Below, piece by piece: positions 1-37,283 of a DNA stretch of 44,716 nucleotides. Under the pieces are notes generated by a model. That model saw only the letters and a program-made list of their open reading frames with translations, made no database searches and was not told the origin of the DNA. The position numbers and the translations under genes were made by a program. The stretch lies in IMG/VR virus record IMGVR_UViG_3300005935_000028, positions 1-44,716 of that record; one strand, 5' to 3'. Within the stretch, counting starts at the first letter, position 1. Each line of letters starts with the position of its first letter. This DNA is from a virus.

Positions 1-69
1 TGCGATAATCTTGGGTAGAGGCACTGAATCATAATCAGTTGCAAGTAGGTTCGACTCCCACTATCGCAA
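1..69 (+). tRNA. tRNA with CAT anticodon (Met or Ile2)
   Basis: A 7-bp acceptor stem (1-7 with 62-68) closes an anticodon arm whose 7-nt loop ATCATAA reads CAT. The T-loop TTCGACT is present and the D-arm is short. No CCA is encoded. The sequence alone does not separate elongator Met from lysidine-type Ile. This is the first RNA of the block and starts at the window edge. Confidence 0.85.
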
Positions 70-77
70 CACAAATT

Positions 78-151
78 GGGCGAGCATGTACCAAGGCTGG
101 CGAGATTGCTTTGCAAGCAAACTGTGATGGGTTCGATTCCCATCTTGTCCA
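78..151 (+). tRNA. tRNA-Ala (TGC)
   Basis: The acceptor GGGCGAG pairs with CTTGTCC with two G-U pairs. The anticodon loop TTTGCAA gives TGC. The T-arm GATGGG-TTCGATT-CCCATC is canonical. The D-arm is unusual and closely resembles that of the tRNA-Trp at 2914. Confidence 0.85.
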
Positions 152-154
152 CAA

Positions 155-191
155 ATCAACTGGTTCGGTTTTAAAGCCTTACTGGATTGAT
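155..191 (+). other. weak closed-stem spacer element
   Basis: ATCAA (155-159) can pair with TTGAT (187-191), with a weak inner hairpin. It lies between tRNA-Ala and the next spacer element. No function is recognised. Confidence 0.25.
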
Positions 192-194
192 CTT

Positions 195-230
195 GGGAAG
201 TGAGATGACATATATTGTATTTTACTTCCC
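195..230 (+). other. closed-stem spacer element, 7-bp stem
   Basis: GGGAAGT (195-201) pairs perfectly with ACTTCCC (224-230) over an AT-rich interior. It ends 4 nt before tRNA-Cys. The 7-bp closing stem is acceptor-sized, but no anticodon or T-arm is visible, so it is not called a tRNA. Confidence 0.4.
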
Positions 231-234
231 CCAT

Positions 235-306
235 GACCTGTTGGCGAAGGAGAAACGCAGCTGTTTGCAAAACGGTTATGCACTGGTGCGATCCCAGTAC
301 AGGTCT
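235..306 (+). tRNA. tRNA-Cys (GCA)
   Basis: The acceptor GACCTGT pairs with ACAGGTC. The anticodon loop TTGCAAA gives GCA. The T-loop reads GTGCGAT rather than the usual TTCGAAT, so the fold is slightly atypical. Confidence 0.85.
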
Positions 307-311
307 CACAT

Positions 312-384
312 GTAAAGGTAGTCAAGTTGGTCACGACGGATGTCTGAAAAACATCAGATATTGGTTCGATTCCAATCCTTTGCA
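312..384 (+). tRNA. tRNA-Phe (GAA)
   Basis: The acceptor GTAAAGG pairs with CCTTTGC. The anticodon arm GATGT-CTGAAAA-ACATC reads GAA. The T-arm is canonical and the discriminator is A. Confidence 0.93.
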
Positions 385-389
385 CAAAC

Positions 390-461
390 TACGGAATAGT
401 GTAACGGCAACACGGAGGACTTTGACCCCTCAGATTCTAGGTTCAAATCCTAGTTCCGTAA
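390..461 (+). tRNA. tRNA-Gln (TTG)
   Basis: The acceptor TACGGAA pairs perfectly with TTCCGTA. The anticodon loop CTTTGAC gives TTG. A second Gln tRNA (CTG) lies at 2101, so both Gln codons are covered. Confidence 0.9.
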
Positions 462-467
462 CAAAAA

Positions 468-551
468 GCTGATGTAGTCTTCTAAAGAGGGAGAGCGGAC
501 TGTAAACCCGTAGCCTAATCGCCAACCTAGGAGCATTACCTAGAATCAGCA
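468..551 (+). tRNA. tRNA-Tyr (GTA), class II
   Basis: GCTGAT pairs with ATCAGC at the ends. The anticodon loop CTGTAAA gives GTA. A long variable arm follows, as expected for bacterial Tyr tRNA. The T-loop AGCATTA departs from consensus. Part of it (TGTAGTCTT and the GCGGACT..TAAA..CC block) recurs in the structured RNA at 5703. Confidence 0.85.
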
Positions 552-556
552 CACAT

Positions 557-641
557 GGAAGATTACACGCGTAATTGGCACCGCCTCTGTTTTGAAAACA
601 GCGACCGCAAGGTCTTGTAGGTTCAACTCCTACATCTTCCG
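557..641 (+). tRNA. tRNA-Ser (TGA), class II
   Basis: The acceptor GGAAGAT pairs with ATCTTCC. The anticodon loop TTTGAAA gives TGA. A long variable arm (GCGACCGCAAGGTC) supports Ser identity. Confidence 0.92.
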
Positions 642-670
642 CCCGTTTAAGTTCTTTGACAGTTAAATAT

Positions 671-742
671 AGCGGGTGGGAGGTAAGTATCTCGATAGGC
701 TCATAACCTGTCTTAACTGAGTGCGATTCTCAGATTCCGCTA
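671..742 (+). tRNA. tRNA with CAT anticodon (Met or Ile2)
   Basis: AGCGGG pairs with TCCGCT. The anticodon arm ATAGG-CTCATAA-CCTGT reads CAT and a GAG/CTC D-stem is present. The T-arm CTGAG-TGCGATT-CTCAG is followed by one extra nucleotide. The three G-C pairs of an initiator anticodon stem are absent, so it is probably not fMet. Confidence 0.8.
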
Positions 743-743
743 C

Positions 744-814
744 GGCCCTGTCGTCTAGAGGCAGGACAGATGTTTCTCAGACATCAGGCTAGGGTTCGAT
801 TCCCTACAGGGCTA
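744..814 (+). tRNA. tRNA-Glu (CTC)
   Basis: The acceptor GGCCCTG pairs with CAGGGCT. The anticodon arm GATGT-TTCTCAG-ACATC reads CTC. The T-arm TAGGG-TTCGATT-CCCTA is canonical. Confidence 0.9.
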
Positions 815-820
815 CTAAAA

Positions 821-894
821 GGCGATATAGTGTAAATGGCCAACACACTTCCCTTTCAAGGCAGAGACTATGGGTTCGATCCCCATTATCGTCA
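821..894 (+). tRNA. tRNA-Glu (TTC)
   Basis: The acceptor GGCGATA pairs with TATCGTC. The anticodon loop CTTTCAA gives TTC. With the preceding tRNA both Glu codons are covered. Confidence 0.9.
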
Positions 895-898
895 CCAA

Positions 899-980
899 GC
901 CAAATTGGTGGAATAGGTATACACGCGAGTTTTAGAAACTCGTGCCGTAAGGTATGTAGGTTCGAATCCTATATTTGGCA
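899..980 (+). tRNA. tRNA-Leu (TAG), class II
   Basis: The acceptor GCCAAAT pairs with ATTTGGC. The anticodon arm CGAGT-TTTAGAA-ACTCG reads TAG. The long variable arm and the D-arm are typical of bacterial Leu. It is the only canonical Leu tRNA in the window. Confidence 0.93.
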
Positions 981-984
981 CACA

Positions 985-1058
985 AGTAGTCTGAAAGAGT
1001 TTTTACTCTTGAAACCACGCGTAGGTTTGTAGCCTACAAGCTGGGAGACAGGCTACTA
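985..1058 (+). other. tRNA-sized closed-stem element, not a canonical tRNA
   Basis: AGTAGTC (985-991) pairs with GGCTACT (1051-1057) as an acceptor-like 7-bp stem with a following A. Inside are a hairpin AAGAG...CTCTT and a hairpin GTAGG-TTTGTAG-CCTAC whose loop could read TGT (Thr). The expected T-arm is missing, and GTAGCCT can instead pair with AGGCTAC. It ends 1 nt before the next tRNA. It may be a degenerate tRNA-Thr or a separate small RNA. Confidence 0.35.
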
Positions 1059-1059
1059 T

Positions 1060-1133
1060 GCTTCAGTAACCCAACTGGTAGAGGTAATCGGCTTAAAACC
1101 GACACAGTATAGGTTCGAATCCTATTTGAAGCA
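1060..1133 (+). tRNA. class I tRNA with TAA anticodon (Leu-type)
   Basis: The acceptor GCTTCAG pairs with TTGAAGC, the D-arm is ACC/GGT, and the anticodon loop CTTAAAA gives TAA. The variable loop is only 5 nt (ACAGT) and the T-arm is canonical. Bacterial Leu tRNAs normally have a long variable arm, so charging identity is uncertain. The discriminator A is compatible with Leu. Confidence 0.85.
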
Positions 1134-1136
1134 CAC

Positions 1137-1181
1137 GGGCATGGGGAATCTGAGGAACTCCGAAGAATCCCGAACGTGCCC
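1137..1181 (+). other. closed-stem spacer element, 45 nt
   Basis: GGGCATG (1137-1143) pairs with CGTGCCC (1175-1181). An inner GGGA/TCCC stem and a GAG/CTC mini-hairpin follow. It lies between the two class I Leu-anticodon tRNAs. It is too short to be a tRNA. Confidence 0.4.
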
Positions 1182-1186
1182 CGTTT

Positions 1187-1260
1187 GCTACTTTACCCCA
1201 ACTGGTAGAGGGATCGGATTCAAAACCCGAGTAGTGAAAGTTCGAATCTTTCAAGTAGCA
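1187..1260 (+). tRNA. class I tRNA with CAA anticodon (Leu-type)
   Basis: The acceptor GCTACTT pairs perfectly with AAGTAGC. The D-arm is nearly identical to that of the tRNA at 1060. The anticodon loop TTCAAAA gives CAA and the variable loop is only 5 nt (GTAGT). It looks like a sister of the TAA tRNA, covering TTG, and likewise lacks the class II arm expected of Leu. Confidence 0.85.
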
Positions 1261-1264
1261 CCAT

Positions 1265-1295
1265 GCTGAAGTATTACATCCGTGTTATACTCAGC
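1265..1295 (+). other. spacer hairpin
   Basis: GCTGA-A-GTAT pairs with ATAC-TCAGC (nine pairs with one bulge) around a 12-nt loop. It ends 3 nt before tRNA-Ile(GAT). Confidence 0.4.
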
Positions 1296-1298
1296 TAC

Positions 1299-1370
1299 AG
1301 ATGAGTAGCCAAGCGGTAAGGTACCTCTCTGATACAGAGGAGATCATTGGTTCGAATCCAATCTCATCTA
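1299..1370 (+). tRNA. tRNA-Ile (GAT)
   Basis: The acceptor AGATGAG pairs with CTCATCT. The anticodon arm CCTCT-CTGATAC-AGAGG reads GAT. The T-arm is canonical. Confidence 0.93.
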
Positions 1371-1376
1371 CACAGT

Positions 1377-1424
1377 CCCTACCTCGAAAGAGCGTCTGTT
1401 CACTCGTAAGGGTTTCAAGAGGGG
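1377..1424 (+). other. spacer hairpin with long interior
   Basis: CCTCGAAA (1382-1389) pairs with TTTC-AA-GAGG (1413-1422) with a small bulge, extended by flanking C-G pairs. No RNA family is recognised. Confidence 0.35.
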
Positions 1425-1430
1425 AATTAA

Positions 1431-1468
1431 CGGCGTAAATCTAAGTCGTAAGATATGGTTTATAGCCG
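1431..1468 (+). other. weak stem before the tmRNA
   Basis: CGGC (1431-1434) pairs with GCCG (1465-1468), with partial complementarity inside. It ends 5 nt before the tmRNA 5' end. It could be precursor structure of the tmRNA. Confidence 0.25.
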
Positions 1469-1473
1469 CATAT

Positions 1474-1789
1474 GGGCTTGTATAGTTTCGACAGATTACA
1501 AGTTTAATATCTGCATGTCGATTGACACATCGTTAAAGGTCCAAAGACATAATTGCAAAAACAATTAGGGGTTTCCTCGCCCAACTTAAAGAGGACGTGA
1601 AAGAAACAATCGTTTCGTTTGTGGGCATGTTTTTTTCACCAACCAACGCAAACTACGCTTTTGCTATTTGAGCTTAAAATCAAAAACGCTGATGAGGGTG
1701 TCATATACCTTACGCATCCATTAGGATACTAAACATGTAGATGATGTTAAATTAATAGTCTGGACGTGGTTTCAATACCACCAAGTCCA
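1474..1789 (+). ncRNA. ssrA: transfer-messenger RNA (tmRNA)
   Basis: tmRNA frees stalled ribosomes and tags the incomplete protein. The 5' end GGGCTTG pairs with the 3' end CAAGTCC (1782-1788) as the tRNA-like acceptor. The 5' segment GTATAGTTTCGACAG matches the conserved tmRNA start, and a T-arm GTGG-TTTCAAT-ACCAC precedes the 3' end. A tag frame ends at TGA (1669-1671); its last codons read ANYAFAI, starting with GCA at 1648. The real resume codon may lie further upstream. The 3' CCA is not encoded. About 316 nt, a normal one-piece length. Confidence 0.92.
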
Positions 1790-1793
1790 CAAT

Positions 1794-1868
1794 AGGCGAT
1801 TAACTCAGCCTGGTCAGAGTGGCGGTGTTACATACCGTTCGTCGGGGGTTCAAATCCCTCATCGCCTA
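1794..1868 (+). tRNA. tRNA-Val (TAC)
   Basis: The acceptor AGGCGAT pairs with ATCGCCT. The anticodon loop GTTACAT reads TAC, with an unusual G at position 32. The T-arm is present. Confidence 0.88.
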
Positions 1869-1872
1869 CAAT

Positions 1873-1944
1873 TGGGGATTAGCTCAATGGCTGAGCAACT
1901 CTCTTATACAGAGTAGGTTATAGGTTCGAATCCTATCTCCCCAA
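1873..1944 (+). tRNA. tRNA-Ile (TAT)
   Basis: The acceptor TGGGGAT pairs with CTCCCCA apart from the last position. The anticodon arm ACTCT-CTTATAC-AGAGT reads TAT. A direct TAT tRNA for ATA codons is uncommon in bacteria, which usually use a modified CAT tRNA. Confidence 0.9.
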
Positions 1945-1950
1945 CAAAAT

Positions 1951-2023
1951 ACTCTCGTAGCGTAGGGGACAACGCACCTGATTCCTAATCAGGCATACAT
2001 AGGTTCGATTCCTATCGAGAGTA
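1951..2023 (+). tRNA. tRNA-Arg (CCT)
   Basis: The acceptor ACTCTCG pairs perfectly with CGAGAGT. The anticodon arm CCTGA-TTCCTAA-TCAGG reads CCT. Confidence 0.93.
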
Positions 2024-2027
2024 CAAA

Positions 2028-2099
2028 GCCTCTGTAGTTCAACGGACAGAATTGCGACCTTCTAAGTCGCGGATCAAAGTTCGATTCTTTGTGGAGGCA
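2028..2099 (+). tRNA. tRNA-Arg (TCT)
   Basis: The acceptor GCCTCTG pairs with TGGAGGC. The anticodon arm GCGAC-CTTCTAA-GTCGC reads TCT. AGA is the Arg codon expected to be common in this AT-rich genome. Confidence 0.93.
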
Positions 2100-2100
2100 C

Positions 2101-2173
2101 TGCCAAGTAGTGTAATCGGCAACACGTGTGGTTCTGAGCCACAAGATTGTAGGTTCGAGACCTACCTTGGTAA
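2101..2173 (+). tRNA. tRNA-Gln (CTG)
   Basis: The acceptor TGCCAAG pairs with CTTGGTA. The anticodon arm GTGG-TTCTGAG-CCAC reads CTG. RNase P RNA begins 2 nt downstream. Confidence 0.9.
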
Positions 2174-2174
2174 C

Positions 2175-2444
2175 ATCAGAAAGCGAGATGACGCTTGAAA
2201 AAGAGGAAAGTCCAGACTGCATGGAACAGACTGCTTAGGTTAAATCCTAAGACGGGTAAAACCGCTGATTAGAGCTACAGAGACGAGCACGCCGCCTTCT
2301 ACTAGAAGGTCGCATGGTGAAACGAGCAATCTCCGTCGCAGCAACTTCCGAATTGACCGTTTGAGGATGTTCCACCAAGGTCTAAAGTTCGAAGGCATAG
2401 ACAGATGTCATCATAAAACAGAATCTGGCTTATTACTTTCTGAT
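2175..2444 (+). ncRNA. rnpB: RNase P RNA, type A-like
   Basis: RNase P RNA is the catalytic subunit that removes 5' leaders from pre-tRNAs. Helix P1 is closed by ATCAGAAAG (2175-2183) with CTTTCTGAT (2436-2444). The conserved P4 strands are both present: GAGGAAAGTCC near 2212 and ACAGAATCTGGCTTA near 2418. The ACAGAGACGAGC..CGCC block and the GGTGAAACGAGC block match other conserved regions. At 270 nt it is compact. It lies inside the tRNA array, between tRNA-Gln and tRNA-Lys. No RNase P protein gene is seen in the window. Confidence 0.9.
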
Positions 2445-2447
2445 AAC

Positions 2448-2522
2448 GGGTGCATAGCTCAGTTGGTCAAGAGCGTCTGCCTTTTAAGCAGAATGTCGGG
2501 GGTTCAAGTCCCTCTGCACTCA
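2448..2522 (+). tRNA. tRNA-Lys (TTT)
   Basis: The acceptor GGGTGCA pairs with TGCACTC. The anticodon arm TCTGC-CTTTTAA-GCAGA reads TTT. It starts 3 nt after RNase P RNA. Confidence 0.94.
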
Positions 2523-2528
2523 CAGAAT

Positions 2529-2601
2529 GGGTCATTAGCTCAGTTGGTAGAGCACCTCGCTCTTAACGAGGTTGTCGTAGGTTCGAGACCTATATGACTC
2601 A
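2529..2601 (+). tRNA. tRNA-Lys (CTT)
   Basis: The acceptor GGGTCAT pairs perfectly with ATGACTC. The anticodon arm CCTCG-CTCTTAA-CGAGG reads CTT. Confidence 0.94.
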
Positions 2602-2605
2602 CAAA

Positions 2606-2679
2606 GCTCCTATAGCTCAATGGACAAGAGCGTCGGTCTTCGAAACCGCAGGTTGCAAGTTCGAATCTTGCTAGGAGTA
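2606..2679 (+). tRNA. tRNA-Arg (TCG)
   Basis: The acceptor GCTCCTA pairs with TAGGAGT. The anticodon loop CTTCGAA reads TCG. Confidence 0.92.
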
Positions 2680-2698
2680 CTAAAATAAAGTAAGATAG

Positions 2699-2741
2699 AT
2701 GTGCTACTTTAAACACCCCAATAGGTTGGGGCGTAGCATAT
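2699..2741 (+). other. strong closed-stem spacer element
   Basis: GTGCTAC (2701-2707) pairs with GTAGCAT (2733-2739). An inner CCCCAA-TAGG-TTGGGG hairpin (2716-2731) is perfect. No U-run follows, so a terminator is unlikely. Function unknown. Confidence 0.45.
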
Positions 2742-2763
2742 AATTAAGAGCTTATAGTCGCTC

Positions 2764-2817
2764 GGCGGAACCAGACATGAGCTGTCAAACCTATCGTAAC
2801 TTATGTAAACTTCCGCC
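2764..2817 (+). other. closed-stem spacer element, 54 nt
   Basis: GGCGGAA (2764-2770) pairs perfectly with TTCCGCC (2811-2817). An inner GACA-TGAGC-TGTC hairpin follows. The closing stem is acceptor-sized with an A after it, but the body is 20 nt too short for a tRNA. Confidence 0.45.
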
Positions 2818-2825
2818 ATTGACTA

Positions 2826-2907
2826 GGAAGGTTGCCAGAGTGGTAATGGAGCGGCTTGCTAAGCCGTAACGGGCAACCGTTCATAGGTTCGAATCCTATA
2901 CCTTCCG
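2826..2907 (+). tRNA. tRNA-Ser (GCT), class II
   Basis: The acceptor GGAAGGT pairs with ACCTTCC. The anticodon loop TTGCTAA reads GCT. A long variable arm (ACGGGCAACCGT) and discriminator G fit Ser. Confidence 0.93.
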
Positions 2908-2913
2908 CAAAAT

Positions 2914-2986
2914 AAGAGCGAATGTTCCAAGGCTGGCGATGGGGACTCCAAATCCCCGTGGGTAAGTTCGATTCTTACCGTTCTTG
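2914..2986 (+). tRNA. tRNA-Trp (CCA)
   Basis: AAGAGCG pairs with CGTTCTT. The anticodon arm GGGGA-CTCCAAA-TCCCC reads CCA, and discriminator G fits Trp. A CCA rather than TCA anticodon agrees with TGA being used as a stop here. Confidence 0.92.
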
Positions 2987-3013
2987 CAAAGACAACAACA
3001 GTAATAGCTAAAA

Positions 3014-3088
3014 CAGGGTGTAGCGTAGTCTGGCCAACGCGCGTCGTTTGGGACGATGAGATCACTGGTTCAAATCCAGTCATCCTGA
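3014..3088 (+). tRNA. tRNA-Pro (TGG)
   Basis: CAGGGTG pairs with CATCCTG. The anticodon arm CGTCG-TTTGGGA-CGATG reads TGG. It is the last RNA of the block; the first protein gene starts 3 nt later. Confidence 0.9.
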
Positions 3089-3091
3089 CAC

Positions 3092-31582: not shown

Positions 31583-32132
31583 GTGGAATTGGCCTAAATT
31601 GAAGCGTGAATATCTCACTGGAGATTGGTTGACGGTAAAGAAGTTTCTAGAATCTAAGAAAATTCCTACTACTAATTTTAACCAGACAGCGGGGTGGGCA
31701 TCTGAGAAGAAGGCACTTCAAGAGAGGATGACAGATGAGGCTAAGAATAAGATGGTTAGTCAAAGTGTTGATGAGGTAACTGCTGTCAGACAAAGACAGG
31801 CAAGATTGGCGAGATATCTTCAAGCTAAAGCTGCAAAGAAATTAAAAACGTTAGAGATTGAAACTATTGATGAGGCAAGACGTATGGTTATTGCTGGGAT
31901 GAAAGAAGAGCGAAAAGCTTTAGGTATGGGCGAAAGGGCTCCTCATGGTGGAGGATTAACGCAGATTAACATTGAATTACCGAATACAAATTTAGACAAA
32001 TTATTAAAGGATTCTGATTATGAAGGCGTTCTCAAGCTCCTTGCAGAAGTTAAACGAGAAAGAGCTAGCCGTGCTGGAGAAGCAACTGCTAATAAAGGCA
32101 CAGCAGAAGTTCAAGAAGGAGAAGTTGTCTGA
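31566..32132 (+). CDS. terminase small subunit-like protein
   Basis: A 188-residue protein with an N-terminal helix-turn-helix-like segment (WPKLKREYLTGDWLTVKKFLE) and a central helix rich in Lys and Arg, the make-up of phage TerS. TerS recognises the packaging site and loads the large subunit. The position directly before the large terminase gene is decisive. A C-terminal patch (NLDKLLKDSDYE) is likely to contact TerL. It overlaps the next gene by 113 bp, an unusually long overlap. Confidence 0.75.
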   Translation: MATRGKWNWPKLKREYLTGDWLTVKKFLESKKIPTTNFNQTAGWASEKKALQERMTDEAKNKMVSQSVDEVTAVRQRQARLARYLQAKAAKKLKTLEIETIDEARRMVIAGMKEERKALGMGERAPHGGGLTQINIELPNTNLDKLLKDSDYEGVLKLLAEVKRERASRAGEATANKGTAEVQEGEVV

Positions 32133-34722
32133 TTATTTCACTTGGGTAAAAGCAGTTTGGCTTACCTCAAAGGGGAAACCTCTTAAATTCTCCGACAGGA
32201 AATATTTAGTACAAATCTATACTGACCAGTATCACAATATTGTGTATACCAAGGCATCACAGATGGGATTGTCTGAGCGTGGTATTTCTGAGGCTGTGTG
32301 GATTGCTGATATTCTAGGGAAGAATGTACTCTATTGCGTAGACGAAAAAACAGAGCTTTTATCTAAAAGAGGGTGGTTAAGGTTTAATCAGATAAGAGAT
32401 GGTGAAGTTATACTTACTATGAATAAAATAACTGGAAAGAGTGAGTGGAAAAAATCTAAAGAGCTTTTTACCAAGAAGGTTAAAACTAAACTTATTTTAT
32501 TGGAGACAAATAAGTTTTCTGCACTTGTTACTAACAATCATAGATGGATAGTAAAAGATGGGTGGATCAACAAACATAAGAAGCAGGGTTTTTACTTTAC
32601 ACAAACCAAAGATATGTTTATTGGAGATAAATATATTCCTCGTGCTGTTTCTTGTGCCGATTTACCAAAGGACAAAACATACTCAAATCAATTTGTTGAA
32701 TTATGTGCTTGGGTTTGGACAGATGGACACTTTGCAAAAGCACAGGGAAAAGGAATTCGAGGCATAGGACCAAGTTTAATAGGTATAACACAATCAGAGA
32801 AAGTTAATCATGATAAAGTTCAGAAGATAAAAAGATGTCTAAAACTCAACAAACTTAGCTATAAAGAACATCTTTCCAATAACGACTCTAATTGTGTTCA
32901 GCTTATGTTTAAGGGAGAGGTAGCAAGAAAAATAAGGTTAGTAATGCCAAACAAAGTTCCATCAATAGAATTTATTTTATCTTTAACAAAAAACCAATTG
33001 AATATATTTATAGAAACATCACTAGATGCAGACGGGTGGAGAAGAAAAACAAAGAGAGGCAATCTAGTTAGAGCCTTTACACAGAAGAATAAGCAAAGAA
33101 TTGACATATGGACTATGGTTTGCTCTTTAGCTGGCATATCAACAAGGATTGTAAAAAGAAAAGACGGATCATCTAATATGCAATTATATCTATCTAATAA
33201 TATATCTGTAAGGAAGTTACATAGGAAGCATATTGACTATGATGGTATTGTTTGGTGTCCAAGAACAGATAACGGAACATTTTTAGCTAGGAGAAAGGGA
33301 TCAATTTATTGGACTGGTAACACATTCCCCGCCCAGAAGCAGTTACAAGAGTTTGTCCAAGCTCGTCTTAATCCAGTTCTTAACATGTCTGACTACTTAA
33401 AAGATCGGGTTGAGTCTGTTCAGGGAAAAAGAGTCGAGACGTTGGGTTTAAAAAAGATAGGCAAAGGAGATATTTATTTTCGTGGTAGCACAAACGAGAA
33501 ACAGATTATTTCTGTTGATGCTGATTGTGTTTTCTTAGATGAACGAGATAGGTTTGACGAAAGGAATGTTCCTTTTATTGATAAGCGTATGAACGCTTCT
33601 GATCTAAAGTGGAGACGTGAAATTTCTACTCCTACTCTACCAAAGCATGCTATTCACCAAGCCTATTTAGATAGCGATCAAAGAGTATGGCAGATTAAGT
33701 GTAAGAATTGTGGATTATGGCAAGAGTTAGATTTCTTTAAGAATATTAATTATAAAAATAAAACTTGTGTTTGCCGTCAGTGTAAAAAGAAGATGAAAAG
33801 AATTGTTGATGGTAGATGGGAAGCTCAAAACCCATCTAGTGATGTTCATGGATATAGAGTTAATGGGATGTATAATCCATCAGTAACTATTGCTGATATT
33901 GTTAAGAAATATCGGAGTGCAAAACTTATAGGTTTTTCTGCTTTACAGCAGTTTTATAATCAAGACCTTGGGCTTCCTTACGAGGTTTCAGGACAGGTTG
34001 TCCAAATTTCTGAGTTAAACGCATGTAAAAAAGAGTATGAGATTCCTATTGAATCCAAAAAGTCTTGTTTCGCTGGTATTGATATTGGTAGTAAAGTCCA
34101 TAACGTTGTTGTTGTCCAGAAAATAAAAGGCGAAGGATATCGTGTAGTTTGGGCAGGTATTGTTAGCAAATTCTTCGGACCAGCTAATAGCATTGAGAGT
34201 GTTATGGGAGCTTATGATATTAAAATTGCTGTCGTTGATAAATTGCCAGAACAGGGGTTAGTAAAAGAATTGATAGAGAAATTTCCCAGGAGGATATTTG
34301 CAGCAACCTATCCGTCATCCAAGTTTACTGTCAAAGAATATTTTAGGTGGGACAATATAAAATATGAGGTTAAACTTGACAGGACGATCAGTCTGGATTA
34401 TCTTGTAAGTGATATACAAAATAAGGTGGTAGAGCTGCCAAGGAACATAGAAACAGTTCCAGGTTTCTATAACCAGTTAAGATCGTTAACGAGAGTTACG
34501 AAGAAAAACAGAAGAACTGGTGAGGAAACTGCTTTCTGGGTTGAGACCAGGCAAGGAACTGACCACTATTTCCACGCCTTAAATTTTGCTCGTATGGCTC
34601 AATCTCGAGCGTTAACAGGAAAGGCTCTTTTGGATTACTACAGCCAACCAGGTAAGGATGAAAATCCTGGCTTGATAGATTGGATAAGAGTAAACGCCCA
34701 AAGGATAAAAGAGGTAAAATAA
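32020..34722 (+). CDS. terL: terminase large subunit (GpA-like) interrupted by an intein
   Basis: A 900-residue precursor. The ATPase motor has Walker A-like KASQMGLSE (78-86) and Walker B CVFLDERDRF (D507, E508). A zinc ribbon (CKNC, CRQC) follows, then an RNase H-like nuclease domain (AGIDIGSKVH). It packs DNA into proheads. An intein of 329 residues occupies 106-434, between LGKNVLY and TFPAQKQL; removal leaves a protein of 571 residues, a normal size. AAAGGA lies 8 nt before the ATG at 32020, inside the small subunit gene. Confidence 0.88.
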   Translation: MKAFSSSLQKLNEKELAVLEKQLLIKAQQKFKKEKLSDYFTWVKAVWLTSKGKPLKFSDRKYLVQIYTDQYHNIVYTKASQMGLSERGISEAVWIADILGKNVLYCVDEKTELLSKRGWLRFNQIRDGEVILTMNKITGKSEWKKSKELFTKKVKTKLILLETNKFSALVTNNHRWIVKDGWINKHKKQGFYFTQTKDMFIGDKYIPRAVSCADLPKDKTYSNQFVELCAWVWTDGHFAKAQGKGIRGIGPSLIGITQSEKVNHDKVQKIKRCLKLNKLSYKEHLSNNDSNCVQLMFKGEVARKIRLVMPNKVPSIEFILSLTKNQLNIFIETSLDADGWRRKTKRGNLVRAFTQKNKQRIDIWTMVCSLAGISTRIVKRKDGSSNMQLYLSNNISVRKLHRKHIDYDGIVWCPRTDNGTFLARRKGSIYWTGNTFPAQKQLQEFVQARLNPVLNMSDYLKDRVESVQGKRVETLGLKKIGKGDIYFRGSTNEKQIISVDADCVFLDERDRFDERNVPFIDKRMNASDLKWRREISTPTLPKHAIHQAYLDSDQRVWQIKCKNCGLWQELDFFKNINYKNKTCVCRQCKKKMKRIVDGRWEAQNPSSDVHGYRVNGMYNPSVTIADIVKKYRSAKLIGFSALQQFYNQDLGLPYEVSGQVVQISELNACKKEYEIPIESKKSCFAGIDIGSKVHNVVVVQKIKGEGYRVVWAGIVSKFFGPANSIESVMGAYDIKIAVVDKLPEQGLVKELIEKFPRRIFAATYPSSKFTVKEYFRWDNIKYEVKLDRTISLDYLVSDIQNKVVELPRNIETVPGFYNQLRSLTRVTKKNRRTGEETAFWVETRQGTDHYFHALNFARMAQSRALTGKALLDYYSQPGKDENPGLIDWIRVNAQRIKEVK
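32335..33321 (+). mobile_element. intein with LAGLIDADG homing endonuclease
   Basis: The intein spans residues 106-434 of the terminase precursor. It begins with Cys (block A CVDEKTELLS), has block B TNNH, and ends WTGN before Thr435, the extein nucleophile. Two LAGLIDADG-like segments lie inside (WVWTDGHFAK and TSLDADGWRR). The penultimate Gly replaces the classical His. Insertion into the terminase ATPase core at a conserved site is typical of such elements. The two endonuclease motifs look intact enough for cutting. Confidence 0.88.
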
Positions 34723-34723
34723 T

Positions 34724-36499
34724 ATGGGAATTTTTGATAATCTTTTGAAGAGAGTTATTAACCCTGTGATTGAGAAATCACTCGAAGAAACGATTGAGAA
34801 AGATGGAGAATTAAAAAAGAGATTAACGACACAGTCATTACCAATTGACACATATCCAGATGGTGCTGGTACGATTAATAGAAAGGTAGTTAAGAAGAGT
34901 TTCCCTGGCGGAATCAGTTATGGTATTTTAAGAGAGTTTGCTTTGTTCTATCCGATCCTTAGGTCTTGTGTCAATTATCGCAAAAGACAAATTACACAGT
35001 TAGATTGGGATATTGTTCCTCGTGAAGTTGTTAAAGATAAGAAGAAGAAAGATAGATTAAGAGAAGAATCTAAGACTACAAAAGATTTCTTAAAATATCC
35101 TACTGGAGATGAAACAATGAGTTTCAGAATATTTGTTAATAAAATCATTGAGGACTTGATGGTATTGGATGCTGTGTCTATCTATAAGCGTCTGAATAGG
35201 AAAGGTGATTTATATGGATATTTACCAATAGATAGTGCAACCATTAAATTGATGCTAAATAAGGATGGGACAGTTCCTGCGGCACCACGTAAAGCATACG
35301 TTCAGGTCATTGATGGGAAATTAACAGCGAAGCTATCTACAGATGAATTAATTTATAGACTTATGAACCCAAGGACTAACACCCCATATGGGTTAAGCCC
35401 AGTAGAAACACTAATTATCACAGTAACAACAGCTTTAAAACTGTCTTCTTATAACCTTGCTTACTTAACAGAAGGGAATGTTCCAGAGGGCTTTGTCGAA
35501 CTTCCAAAGGAAGTTGCTGATAGCCCAGAGCAGATGCAGGTATGGCAAAGCAAGTGGGATGCTATGTTTTCAGGTGATCCAAGATTTCAGAGAAAGATTA
35601 AATTCTTACCAGAGGGAATGCAGTGGCATCCAATTAGAAAACCAGACGATATGAAGTTTGATAGGTTTGAGAAGTGGCTATTGCTTAATACTTGTTCAGT
35701 AATGGAAGTACCACCACAGTCTATTGGTTTTCAATTTGATAGGGGCAAAGGGGCAACTGAGGCAGAGTGGGAAATCGGTAAAGAACGTGGTCTTTATCCA
35801 ACTGCTAACTTCTTGAAAGAGATCTTTGATCGCATGGTTCAGGAAGATTTAGGACAAGATGAGCTTGAATTTGTATGGACAAATATCAATCCAACTAATA
35901 AGAAAGAGGAGGCTGATGTATTCGCTAAATTGGTTGGGTATGGTGCCGTATCAGTTGACGAGTGGAGGATTGGAGAAGGTTATGAGCCGATTGGGATGGG
36001 TCACTATATTACTACGCCTACAGGTCCAGTGTTTGTTAAAGACTTGATTGAGATGTCAGAGCAAGGAACACCTATATTGCCACAATCATATTTACCTAAA
36101 GATGGAACTGGACAACCACCCGTACCGAAAGATAAACCTGGTACACCAAAAGATAAGACAGCTCCACCTAAAGATAATTCAGTTACTAGCAAGATTAAAA
36201 AAATTGCTGATAAAGAATTGTTTGAAGAGTTGAAGAGATGGAAAAAGGCAACTAAAAACGATTTCAAAAAGAATCGTGAATTTAGAGCTTTCAGTTCTGA
36301 AATAATTGATTCTAGAACTAAGAGGATTATTGGAGATGGCTTAATGACAATCAAGAAAAGAGAGGATATAGATCAATTATTTGATCCTTTCATTAGTCAT
36401 GAGAATAACATGCTAACATCTATGTTAGAGCTTTATGATAATGTGAAAGATATAGTCGATGAAAAAACAACAGTTAAAAAGGGTCAAAAGAGCAGTTGA
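34724..36499 (+). CDS. portal protein
   Basis: A 591-residue protein. YPILRSCVNYRKRQITQLDWDIV near residue 75 and the GLSPVETL helix are typical of the phage portal (SPP1 gp6/HK97 type); the ring of twelve copies forms the DNA channel of the head. A Pro- and Lys-rich linker (GTGQPPVPKDKPGTPK) starts near residue 462, followed by a helical tail. The position after the terminase supports the call. The last 41 bp overlap the next gene. Confidence 0.85.
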   Translation: MGIFDNLLKRVINPVIEKSLEETIEKDGELKKRLTTQSLPIDTYPDGAGTINRKVVKKSFPGGISYGILREFALFYPILRSCVNYRKRQITQLDWDIVPREVVKDKKKKDRLREESKTTKDFLKYPTGDETMSFRIFVNKIIEDLMVLDAVSIYKRLNRKGDLYGYLPIDSATIKLMLNKDGTVPAAPRKAYVQVIDGKLTAKLSTDELIYRLMNPRTNTPYGLSPVETLIITVTTALKLSSYNLAYLTEGNVPEGFVELPKEVADSPEQMQVWQSKWDAMFSGDPRFQRKIKFLPEGMQWHPIRKPDDMKFDRFEKWLLLNTCSVMEVPPQSIGFQFDRGKGATEAEWEIGKERGLYPTANFLKEIFDRMVQEDLGQDELEFVWTNINPTNKKEEADVFAKLVGYGAVSVDEWRIGEGYEPIGMGHYITTPTGPVFVKDLIEMSEQGTPILPQSYLPKDGTGQPPVPKDKPGTPKDKTAPPKDNSVTSKIKKIADKELFEELKRWKKATKNDFKKNREFRAFSSEIIDSRTKRIIGDGLMTIKKREDIDQLFDPFISHENNMLTSMLELYDNVKDIVDEKTTVKKGQKSS

Positions 36500-37283
36500 G
36501 GCTTTCTTTTATAAAGCTAGATTTAATATTGCCCTACATGACACCTTAGATAACAAGAAACACCACGATTTTAGAAAGAAGATTGAGAAGGCTATCCTTA
36601 AGCAGATTTTGTTTTTTTCTAAAAAGAATAAAGTTGCTCAGGTTATTGGAGTGAATAAAGCAGTTAAAGAACTTAATAATAAAGATTTACTTAAGAACAT
36701 TATATTGATATGGATTCCTTTGACTAATTTTATTACTGAAGTTGAGATAGCTTCGTATATTGAATGGGCTGGGAATAAAGGTGGTCAGTCTGGTGTTAAT
36801 AAGCTTAAGTCTGATCTTAAGTTCAAACTTGAGAATAAAGCTCTACTTGCTTCTATCAAAAAAAGACCATCAGAGTTAGTTAAATTCGTTGATGGAACAA
36901 CACAAGATTGGATTGCTAGAACAATAGAAGAGGGCGTTAATAAAGGTTTATCTGAATATGAGATTGCCTCTATGCTTAGAAGAAACGCCACTTCATCTGC
37001 TAAAGAGAGAGCTGAGGTAGTTGCCGAACAAGAGGCTGCTTTAATTATGGGAGAGATGGAAGTTGAAGTATTTAAGCGTAACAAGATCAAACTTCATAGT
37101 TGGATAACGAGTAGGGATGAGATGGTTTGTGTTGAATGTATGACCAATGAAGAAGCTGGTGATGTAAAAGTTGGTGATGAATTCCCAGGAGGGGTTTTAT
37201 CATCGCCACAACATGTTCGTTGTCGTTGTATGACAATGCCAAAATTTAGTAAAGAGGTAAAGATTTTATGGGCAGGGGAGTAG
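36459..37283 (+). CDS. minor head protein (SPP1 gp7/Mu F-like)
   Basis: A 274-residue protein. The C-terminus SRDEMVCVECMTNEEAG, GDEFPGG and QHVRCRCMTMP matches the phage head morphogenesis domain, with its two CxxC or CRC pairs. It stands right after the portal, as in SPP1-like phages, and is thought to be carried into the head and injected with DNA. N-terminal helices are charged and long. Confidence 0.8.
   Translation: MKKQQLKRVKRAVEAFFYKARFNIALHDTLDNKKHHDFRKKIEKAILKQILFFSKKNKVAQVIGVNKAVKELNNKDLLKNIILIWIPLTNFITEVEIASYIEWAGNKGGQSGVNKLKSDLKFKLENKALLASIKKRPSELVKFVDGTTQDWIARTIEEGVNKGLSEYEIASMLRRNATSSAKERAEVVAEQEAALIMGEMEVEVFKRNKIKLHSWITSRDEMVCVECMTNEEAGDVKVGDEFPGGVLSSPQHVRCRCMTMPKFSKEVKILWAGE

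Follow-up and report, generated by a model that had tools for sequence, protein, structure and literature searches.

The virus record IMGVR_UViG_3300005935_000028 of IMG/VR raises the question of what the RNA subunit of ribonuclease P (RNase P) is doing in a phage. RNase P RNA (hereafter P RNA) is a near-universal cellular ribozyme, and the maturation of phage transfer RNAs (tRNAs) is usually held to depend on the host. In the stretch analyzed here, positions 1 to 44,716 of that record (the window), positions 1-3089 form one same-strand RNA cluster composed of tRNAs, a transfer-messenger RNA (tmRNA) and a P RNA, the latter lying between tRNA-Gln(CTG) and tRNA-Lys(TTT). The comparisons described below suggest that this gene probably encodes a phage-borne ribozyme of bacterial type, which would recruit the host protein RnpA and cut phage tRNA precursors, including the one at its own 3' junction.

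The RNase P RNA of the window

The Rfam model RF00010 aligns at 2175-2448 over its whole length (model 1-367 of 367) and scores 100.8 bits where the gathering threshold is 100 (E 8.7e-30), a match far beyond chance, though barely above the curated cut-off. The complete P RNA that an initial annotation, made from the letters alone, had placed within the array was thus recovered as a full-length match, and the score that it proposed checking with Infernal for 2175-2444 falls above the threshold. P1 consists of nine perfect pairs (about 2175-2183 with 2436-2444) followed by a 3' AAC tail (2445-2447). In the Rfam alignment, the conserved core comprises GAGGAAAGUCC, ACAGARA (as ACAGAGA), AACAGAA..GGCUUA and the P4 helix with its bulged U, and the motifs GUGAAA and AACAGAAUCUGGCUUA are also found. 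The P7-P12 region of the specificity domain is aligned, and P3 is short. The relevant features are as follows.

2101..2175, + strand: tRNA-Gln(CTG), 3' tail adjoining the P RNA 5' end (ARAGORN)
2175..2447, + strand: RNase P RNA, compact class-A-like (RF00010, 100.8 bits, full model)
2204..2214, + strand: conserved region I GAGGAAAGTCC, 5' strand of P4 with bulged U (sequence and Rfam alignment)
2344..2400, + strand: P15-P17 domain (Rfam alignment, compared with relatives)
2417..2432, + strand: conserved region V AACAGAATCTGGCTTA, 3' strand of P4 (Rfam alignment)
2448..2523, + strand: tRNA-Lys(TTT), 5' end adjoining the P RNA 3' end (ARAGORN)

P1 begins with the base that is also the last A of the tRNA-Gln tail; at the other end, three nucleotides (nt), AAC, lie between P1 and the start of tRNA-Lys. 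Given that the 5' end of tRNA-Lys adjoins the P RNA, RNase P cleavage of this tRNA would create the P RNA 3' end.

Recurrence in other phages

IMG/VR was scanned twice for patterns built from universal P RNA motifs, without requiring a nearby tRNA; about 60 contigs were returned, most of which were confirmed by RF00010. In 30 virus records, among them the window and its longer copy, a P RNA lies at most 150 nt from a same-strand tRNA; matches without nearby tRNAs were left out of the phage array counts. These records form 24 groups at 80% identity, to which cultured phages add one. The 3' end of the P RNA lies at most 7 nt from the next tRNA in 17 of the 30, and its 5' end at most 2 nt from the previous tRNA in 13. 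Despite sequence divergence, the P RNA is held between the same tRNA pairs (Thr-P-Gly, Cys-P-Gly and Leu-P-Arg), and a tmRNA above cut-off is found near it in several phages (the window, G022, G036, G039 and G056). In a rough tree, built on a short and length-variable alignment, the phage copies are scattered among bacterial-like ones and do not form one clade. The P RNA of the window is real and complete, as the initial annotation held, but the rarity that it ascribed to phage P RNAs does not stand, as they recur in many phage lineages, including cultured isolates. A similarity search with the P RNA of the window found no match in annotated phages; the P RNAs of the latter were reached by querying with other phage P RNAs.

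Extremes of divergence and size were also encountered. A very divergent P RNA was seen by eye between tRNA-Ser and tRNA-Gln in L095 (4911-5308, minus strand), and the array of L083 resembles that of L095. A P RNA as divergent as this one would escape standard annotation; as it scores only 21.6 bits, the recurrence counts are minima. In L137 (G062:82195-82413), a 207-nt P RNA exceeds the Rfam cut-off with its entire P15-P17 domain missing.

Among cultured isolates, four Microbacterium foliorum phages, including A3Wally, Zooman and Big4 (about 192-195 kb), carry a P RNA of about 216 nt between tRNA-Arg(ccg) and tRNA-Arg(cct), adjoining both, in an array of about 30 tRNAs (in A3Wally, at MZ150783.1 93855-94070). 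Their records annotate nothing at this site. When the four P RNAs are aligned, a 43-pair structure is 99.4% paired over the tested pair cells, with two-sided changes at 8 pairs, compared with 0-1 once the partners are slid. Although part of the structure was derived from these sequences, and four phages amount to few independent events, the outcome of the slid controls is clear. In the A3Wally record (MZ150783.1, L153), the tRNA names conflict with those of its sister phages at the same genes (e.g., Pro versus Arg), apparently because codons were written as anticodons. The Microcystis phage MaAM05 (MW495066.1) was dropped as evidence, as its record has the look of bacterial sequence, with fliM, fabI, engB and glyS and a bacterial P RNA that scores 251.8 bits.

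Protein partners

No RnpA (PF00825) was found in any of 36 P RNA records (controls positive in 10 of 14), no 16S in 37 (controls positive) and no SmpB in 24; many virus records are fragments, which makes such absences weaker than presences. A CCA-adding enzyme (PF01743) is encoded in 13 of 38 records, including A3Wally, i.e., by about a third of P RNA phages (one example is W01:149274-149684). This enzyme occurs in 0.08% of the phage set of PMC10879173, a figure obtained on a different sample with a different method. Its presence alongside P RNA is pointing to phage-borne maturation of tRNA ends.

Neither the window contig nor its longer copy encodes RnpA, SmpB or a CCA-adding enzyme. The initial annotation thus overstated its case in suggesting a self-contained maturation module, but its expectation that the P RNA would have to use the host RNase P protein, or none, agrees with the lack of RnpA across the P RNA records. 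Likewise, host SmpB would be needed for the tmRNA, no SmpB having been found in the phage records.

The tRNA array and its tmRNA

ARAGORN detected 21 tRNAs within 82-3089, Rfam a 22nd at 1-69 (RF00005, 29.2 bits), and three further tRNA-like units (Tyr-GTA, Ser-TGA and CAT), with weaker support from folding or sub-threshold matches, bring the total to 25, the same count as originally proposed. The components other than the P RNA and its two neighbors are listed below.

1..3089, + strand: whole array, 25 tRNA or tRNA-like genes, tmRNA and P RNA (ARAGORN, Rfam, longer identical contig)
1..69, + strand: tRNA with CAT anticodon (RF00005)
82..462, + strand: tRNA-Ala(TGC), Cys(GCA), Phe(GAA), Gln(TTG) (ARAGORN)
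about 470-552, + strand: Tyr(GTA), weakly supported (reading and folding only)
557-640, + strand: Ser(TGA), weakly supported (fold and reading, sub-threshold RF01852)
about 672-742, + strand: CAT tRNA, weakly supported (reading and folding only)
744..1371, + strand: tRNA-Glu(CTC), Glu(TTC), Leu(TAG), Leu(TAA), Leu(CAA), Ile(GAT) (ARAGORN)
1474..1793, + strand: one-piece tmRNA (RF00023, open tag frame)
1794..2100, + strand: tRNA-Val(TAC), Ile(TAT), Arg(CCT), Arg(TCT) (ARAGORN)
2529..3089, + strand: tRNA-Lys(CTT), Arg(TCG), Ser(GCT), Trp(CCA), Pro(TGG) (ARAGORN)

The mostly tight spacing noted at the outset also holds: 17 of the 26 gaps measure at most 8 nt, and the others, several of them structured, 12-146 nt. 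The spacers 981-1059, 1134-1187 and 2681-2825 fold as stable hairpins or three-way shapes with no tRNA call, and are perhaps tRNA relics or other small RNAs. The G+C content of the array is 46%, against 35-36% elsewhere in the window, as expected for structured RNA. C74 is nearly always encoded by the tRNAs of the window, and CCA by 2 of 21; across the arrays compared, nearly all of the phage tRNA genes that lack CCA likewise encode C74.

RF00023 matches the predicted one-piece tmRNA at 1474-1792 with 98.8 bits, above the gathering score of 47 (E 1.6e-37). This RNA has tRNA-like ends and a tag frame open from GCA at 1555 to TGA at about 1669, encoding AKTIRGFLAQLKEDVKETIVSFVGMFFSPTNANYAFAI; ARAGORN made no tmRNA call. 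The tag frame (1555-1671) is unusually long, with 38 codons, and ends in ANYAFAI, as if a normal tag had been joined to a longer tag.

Phage origin of the locus

The contig belongs to a tailed phage, as it carries terminase, portal and head genes:

32020..37283, + strand: terminase large subunit (TerL), portal and head morphogenesis genes (PHROG matches)

A second, longer contig, IMGVR_UViG_3300025736_000014 (76.7 kb; L076), is 100% identical to the window in every stretch compared, which suggests that both assemblies derive from the same phage population and that the second is not fully independent. Upstream of the window it adds about 32 kb with genes of phage type (Erf-like annealing protein, DnaB-like), and the array itself continues for about 1 kb in that direction with Asp, Asn and Thr tRNAs, an HNH open reading frame, and Gly and His tRNAs. 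The HNH endonuclease frame within this upstream part lies at 3524-3985 of L076. Counting the weak calls, the extended array has tRNAs for all 20 amino acids. The concern that phage and host sequences might be joined at about 3 kb is dispelled by this contig, where phage genes flank the identical array on both sides. A scan of bacterial genomes with TerL found no prophage or host for the window phage. The terminase Pfam model is a poor hallmark here, as it misses the window's own terminase and matches 5 of 38 records.

Proposed mechanism and alternatives

The array would be transcribed as one polycistronic precursor, within which the P RNA would fold and bind host RnpA, the host protein being invoked because the phage has none. 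The resulting holoenzyme could cut phage tRNAs and the tmRNA at their 5' ends. The P RNA would itself be released from the precursor by the RNase P cut at the adjoining tRNA-Lys, which would free its 3' end, and by processing of the 3' side of the adjoining tRNA-Gln, which would free its 5' end. The presumed benefit to the phage is that maturation of its tRNAs would then not depend on host P RNA alone. A broader scenario, which we propose tentatively and for which we would give somewhat less than even chances, is that phages repeatedly took up host P RNAs into their tRNA arrays and remodeled them as a phage-specific enzyme. This enzyme would depend on host RnpA, would define its 3' end by cleaving the tRNA fused to it, and would be adapted to phage precursor tRNAs with C74 but not CCA; in some lineages, even the catalytic P4 would have acquired compensated changes.

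Several observations weigh against the proposed mechanism. The window copy is barely over the curated cut-off, and its sole second copy is 100% identical, so that it offers no covariation. It has no P13/P14 or P18 (model segments of 43 and 24 positions without residues), for which reason we call it compact and not canonical class A. In its L15 loop, the consensus CGGGU, which binds the 3' RCCA of precursor tRNAs, is AAGUU. Among the Microbacterium phages, two of the compensated pairs fall in the catalytic P4, where AAG/CUU (A3Wally) is replaced by AGU/GCU (Zooman and Big4). Finally, a relative identified by its portal (55% identity, 103 kb; the contig may be incomplete) has few tRNAs and no P RNA, which implies that P RNA is not essential to the lineage; its absence from a tRNA-poor relative fits a need tied to large arrays.

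The GGU motif of L15 is retained in the P RNAs of most phage relatives. It is not family-defining, as it is missing from cyanobacteria and from many RNase P RNAs of the Candidate Phyla Radiation (PMC8172020). That the changed loop of the window could still pair with A73 and C74 is suggestive only. The idea that the GGU motif is lost strictly together with encoded CCA was rejected, as several phages with few CCA tails retain GGGU. In Zooman and Big4 (L159 601-815 and L160 601-815), compensated swaps of base pairs set P4 apart from its near-universal sequence.

These same peculiarities can be read differently. The phage P RNA could act as a decoy that binds host RnpA or tRNA precursors and starves the host enzyme while processing little itself: with no phage RnpA, any copy must compete for that of the host, and the altered P4 pairs of Zooman and Big4, together with the copies without P15-P17, could mean binding without efficient cleavage. 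A decoy, however, has no need to sit in tRNA arrays or to adjoin tRNAs, yet most copies do, and the catalytic core motifs are retained in nearly all of them, which leads us to regard this role as unlikely. We attach a similarly low probability to the P RNA being a passenger, i.e., a host rnpB captured with tRNA genes and persisting as a decaying, functionless relic. Repeated capture is suggested by the several positions of the phage copies in the rough tree, and the P RNA of the window is compact and divergent, as are several others, but decay accords poorly with the compensatory changes of the Microbacterium phages, with the conserved position beside the same tRNAs in diverged phages, and with the intact core sequences.

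That both ends of the P RNA adjoin tRNAs in many arrays would also be expected if it acted in cis on the order of processing or the stability of the array and not as a trans-acting enzyme; a purely structural spacer would not need the full specificity domain and substrate-binding loops that most copies retain, and we judge a cis-regulatory role improbable. Least credible of all is an assembly artefact or host contamination of the virus collection. Some pattern matches without nearby tRNAs do look bacterial, and MW495066 combines bacterial genes with a bacterial P RNA. For the array type, this explanation is refuted by the four independently isolated cultured phages, and it also conflicts with the two assemblies of the window locus, the phage genes on both sides, and the lack of 16S and RnpA in the records.

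Significance and comparison with known systems

Full-text literature searches returned no report of a phage-encoded RNase P RNA, within a coverage that excludes most subscription papers and preprints, so that an earlier mention is possible. No mention was found by term searches in the main texts of PMC7162821 and PMC8172020, nor by term searches of PMC7824862 and PMC13282480 (jumbo phages) and PMC11143913 (RNase P review). For its RNA genes, PMC7162821 names tRNAscan-SE and ARAGORN, neither of which searches for P RNA. The cited phage pipeline thus searches for tRNA and tmRNA only, which amounts to an annotation blind spot.

If the proposed mechanism is true, phages carry part of tRNA maturation by means of a ribozyme that shares the host protein subunit. 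The phage P RNAs also constitute a natural compact set (about 200-270 nt, some without P15-P17 and some with altered P4) for probing what the ribozyme core needs, and the cultured phages make phage-encoded tRNA maturation directly testable.

The P RNA of the window resembles bacterial RNase P RNA (M1 RNA, rnpB; RF00010 class A) by its full-length match, P4 core with bulged U, P1/P2, specificity domain and P15-P17. It differs in being phage-borne, in lying in a tRNA array with its ends set by tRNA ends, in its shorter length (270 nt), in the lack of P13/P14 and P18, in the changed GGU, and in having no RnpA gene alongside. Arrays of the T4 type (reviewed in PMC11143913) likewise consist of close-set tRNAs that do not encode CCA and require RNase P; they rely on the host P RNA, and host rnpB may process T4 tRNAs, as suggested in PMC9697503, whereas here the RNA subunit lies in the array itself. 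Huge phages (PMC7162821, PMC8172020) are comparable as large phages with many tRNAs and tmRNA. The nearest idea is that of the theta ribozymes of gut phages (PMC10879173), in which a ribozyme beside phage tRNAs is proposed to mature tRNA ends, and CCA-adding enzymes are enriched in the phages that carry them. Theta ribozymes, however, are self-cleaving, resemble the hepatitis delta virus ribozyme and are proposed to act on 3' trailers, whereas the phage P RNA is predicted to be a trans-acting enzyme of the 5' end.

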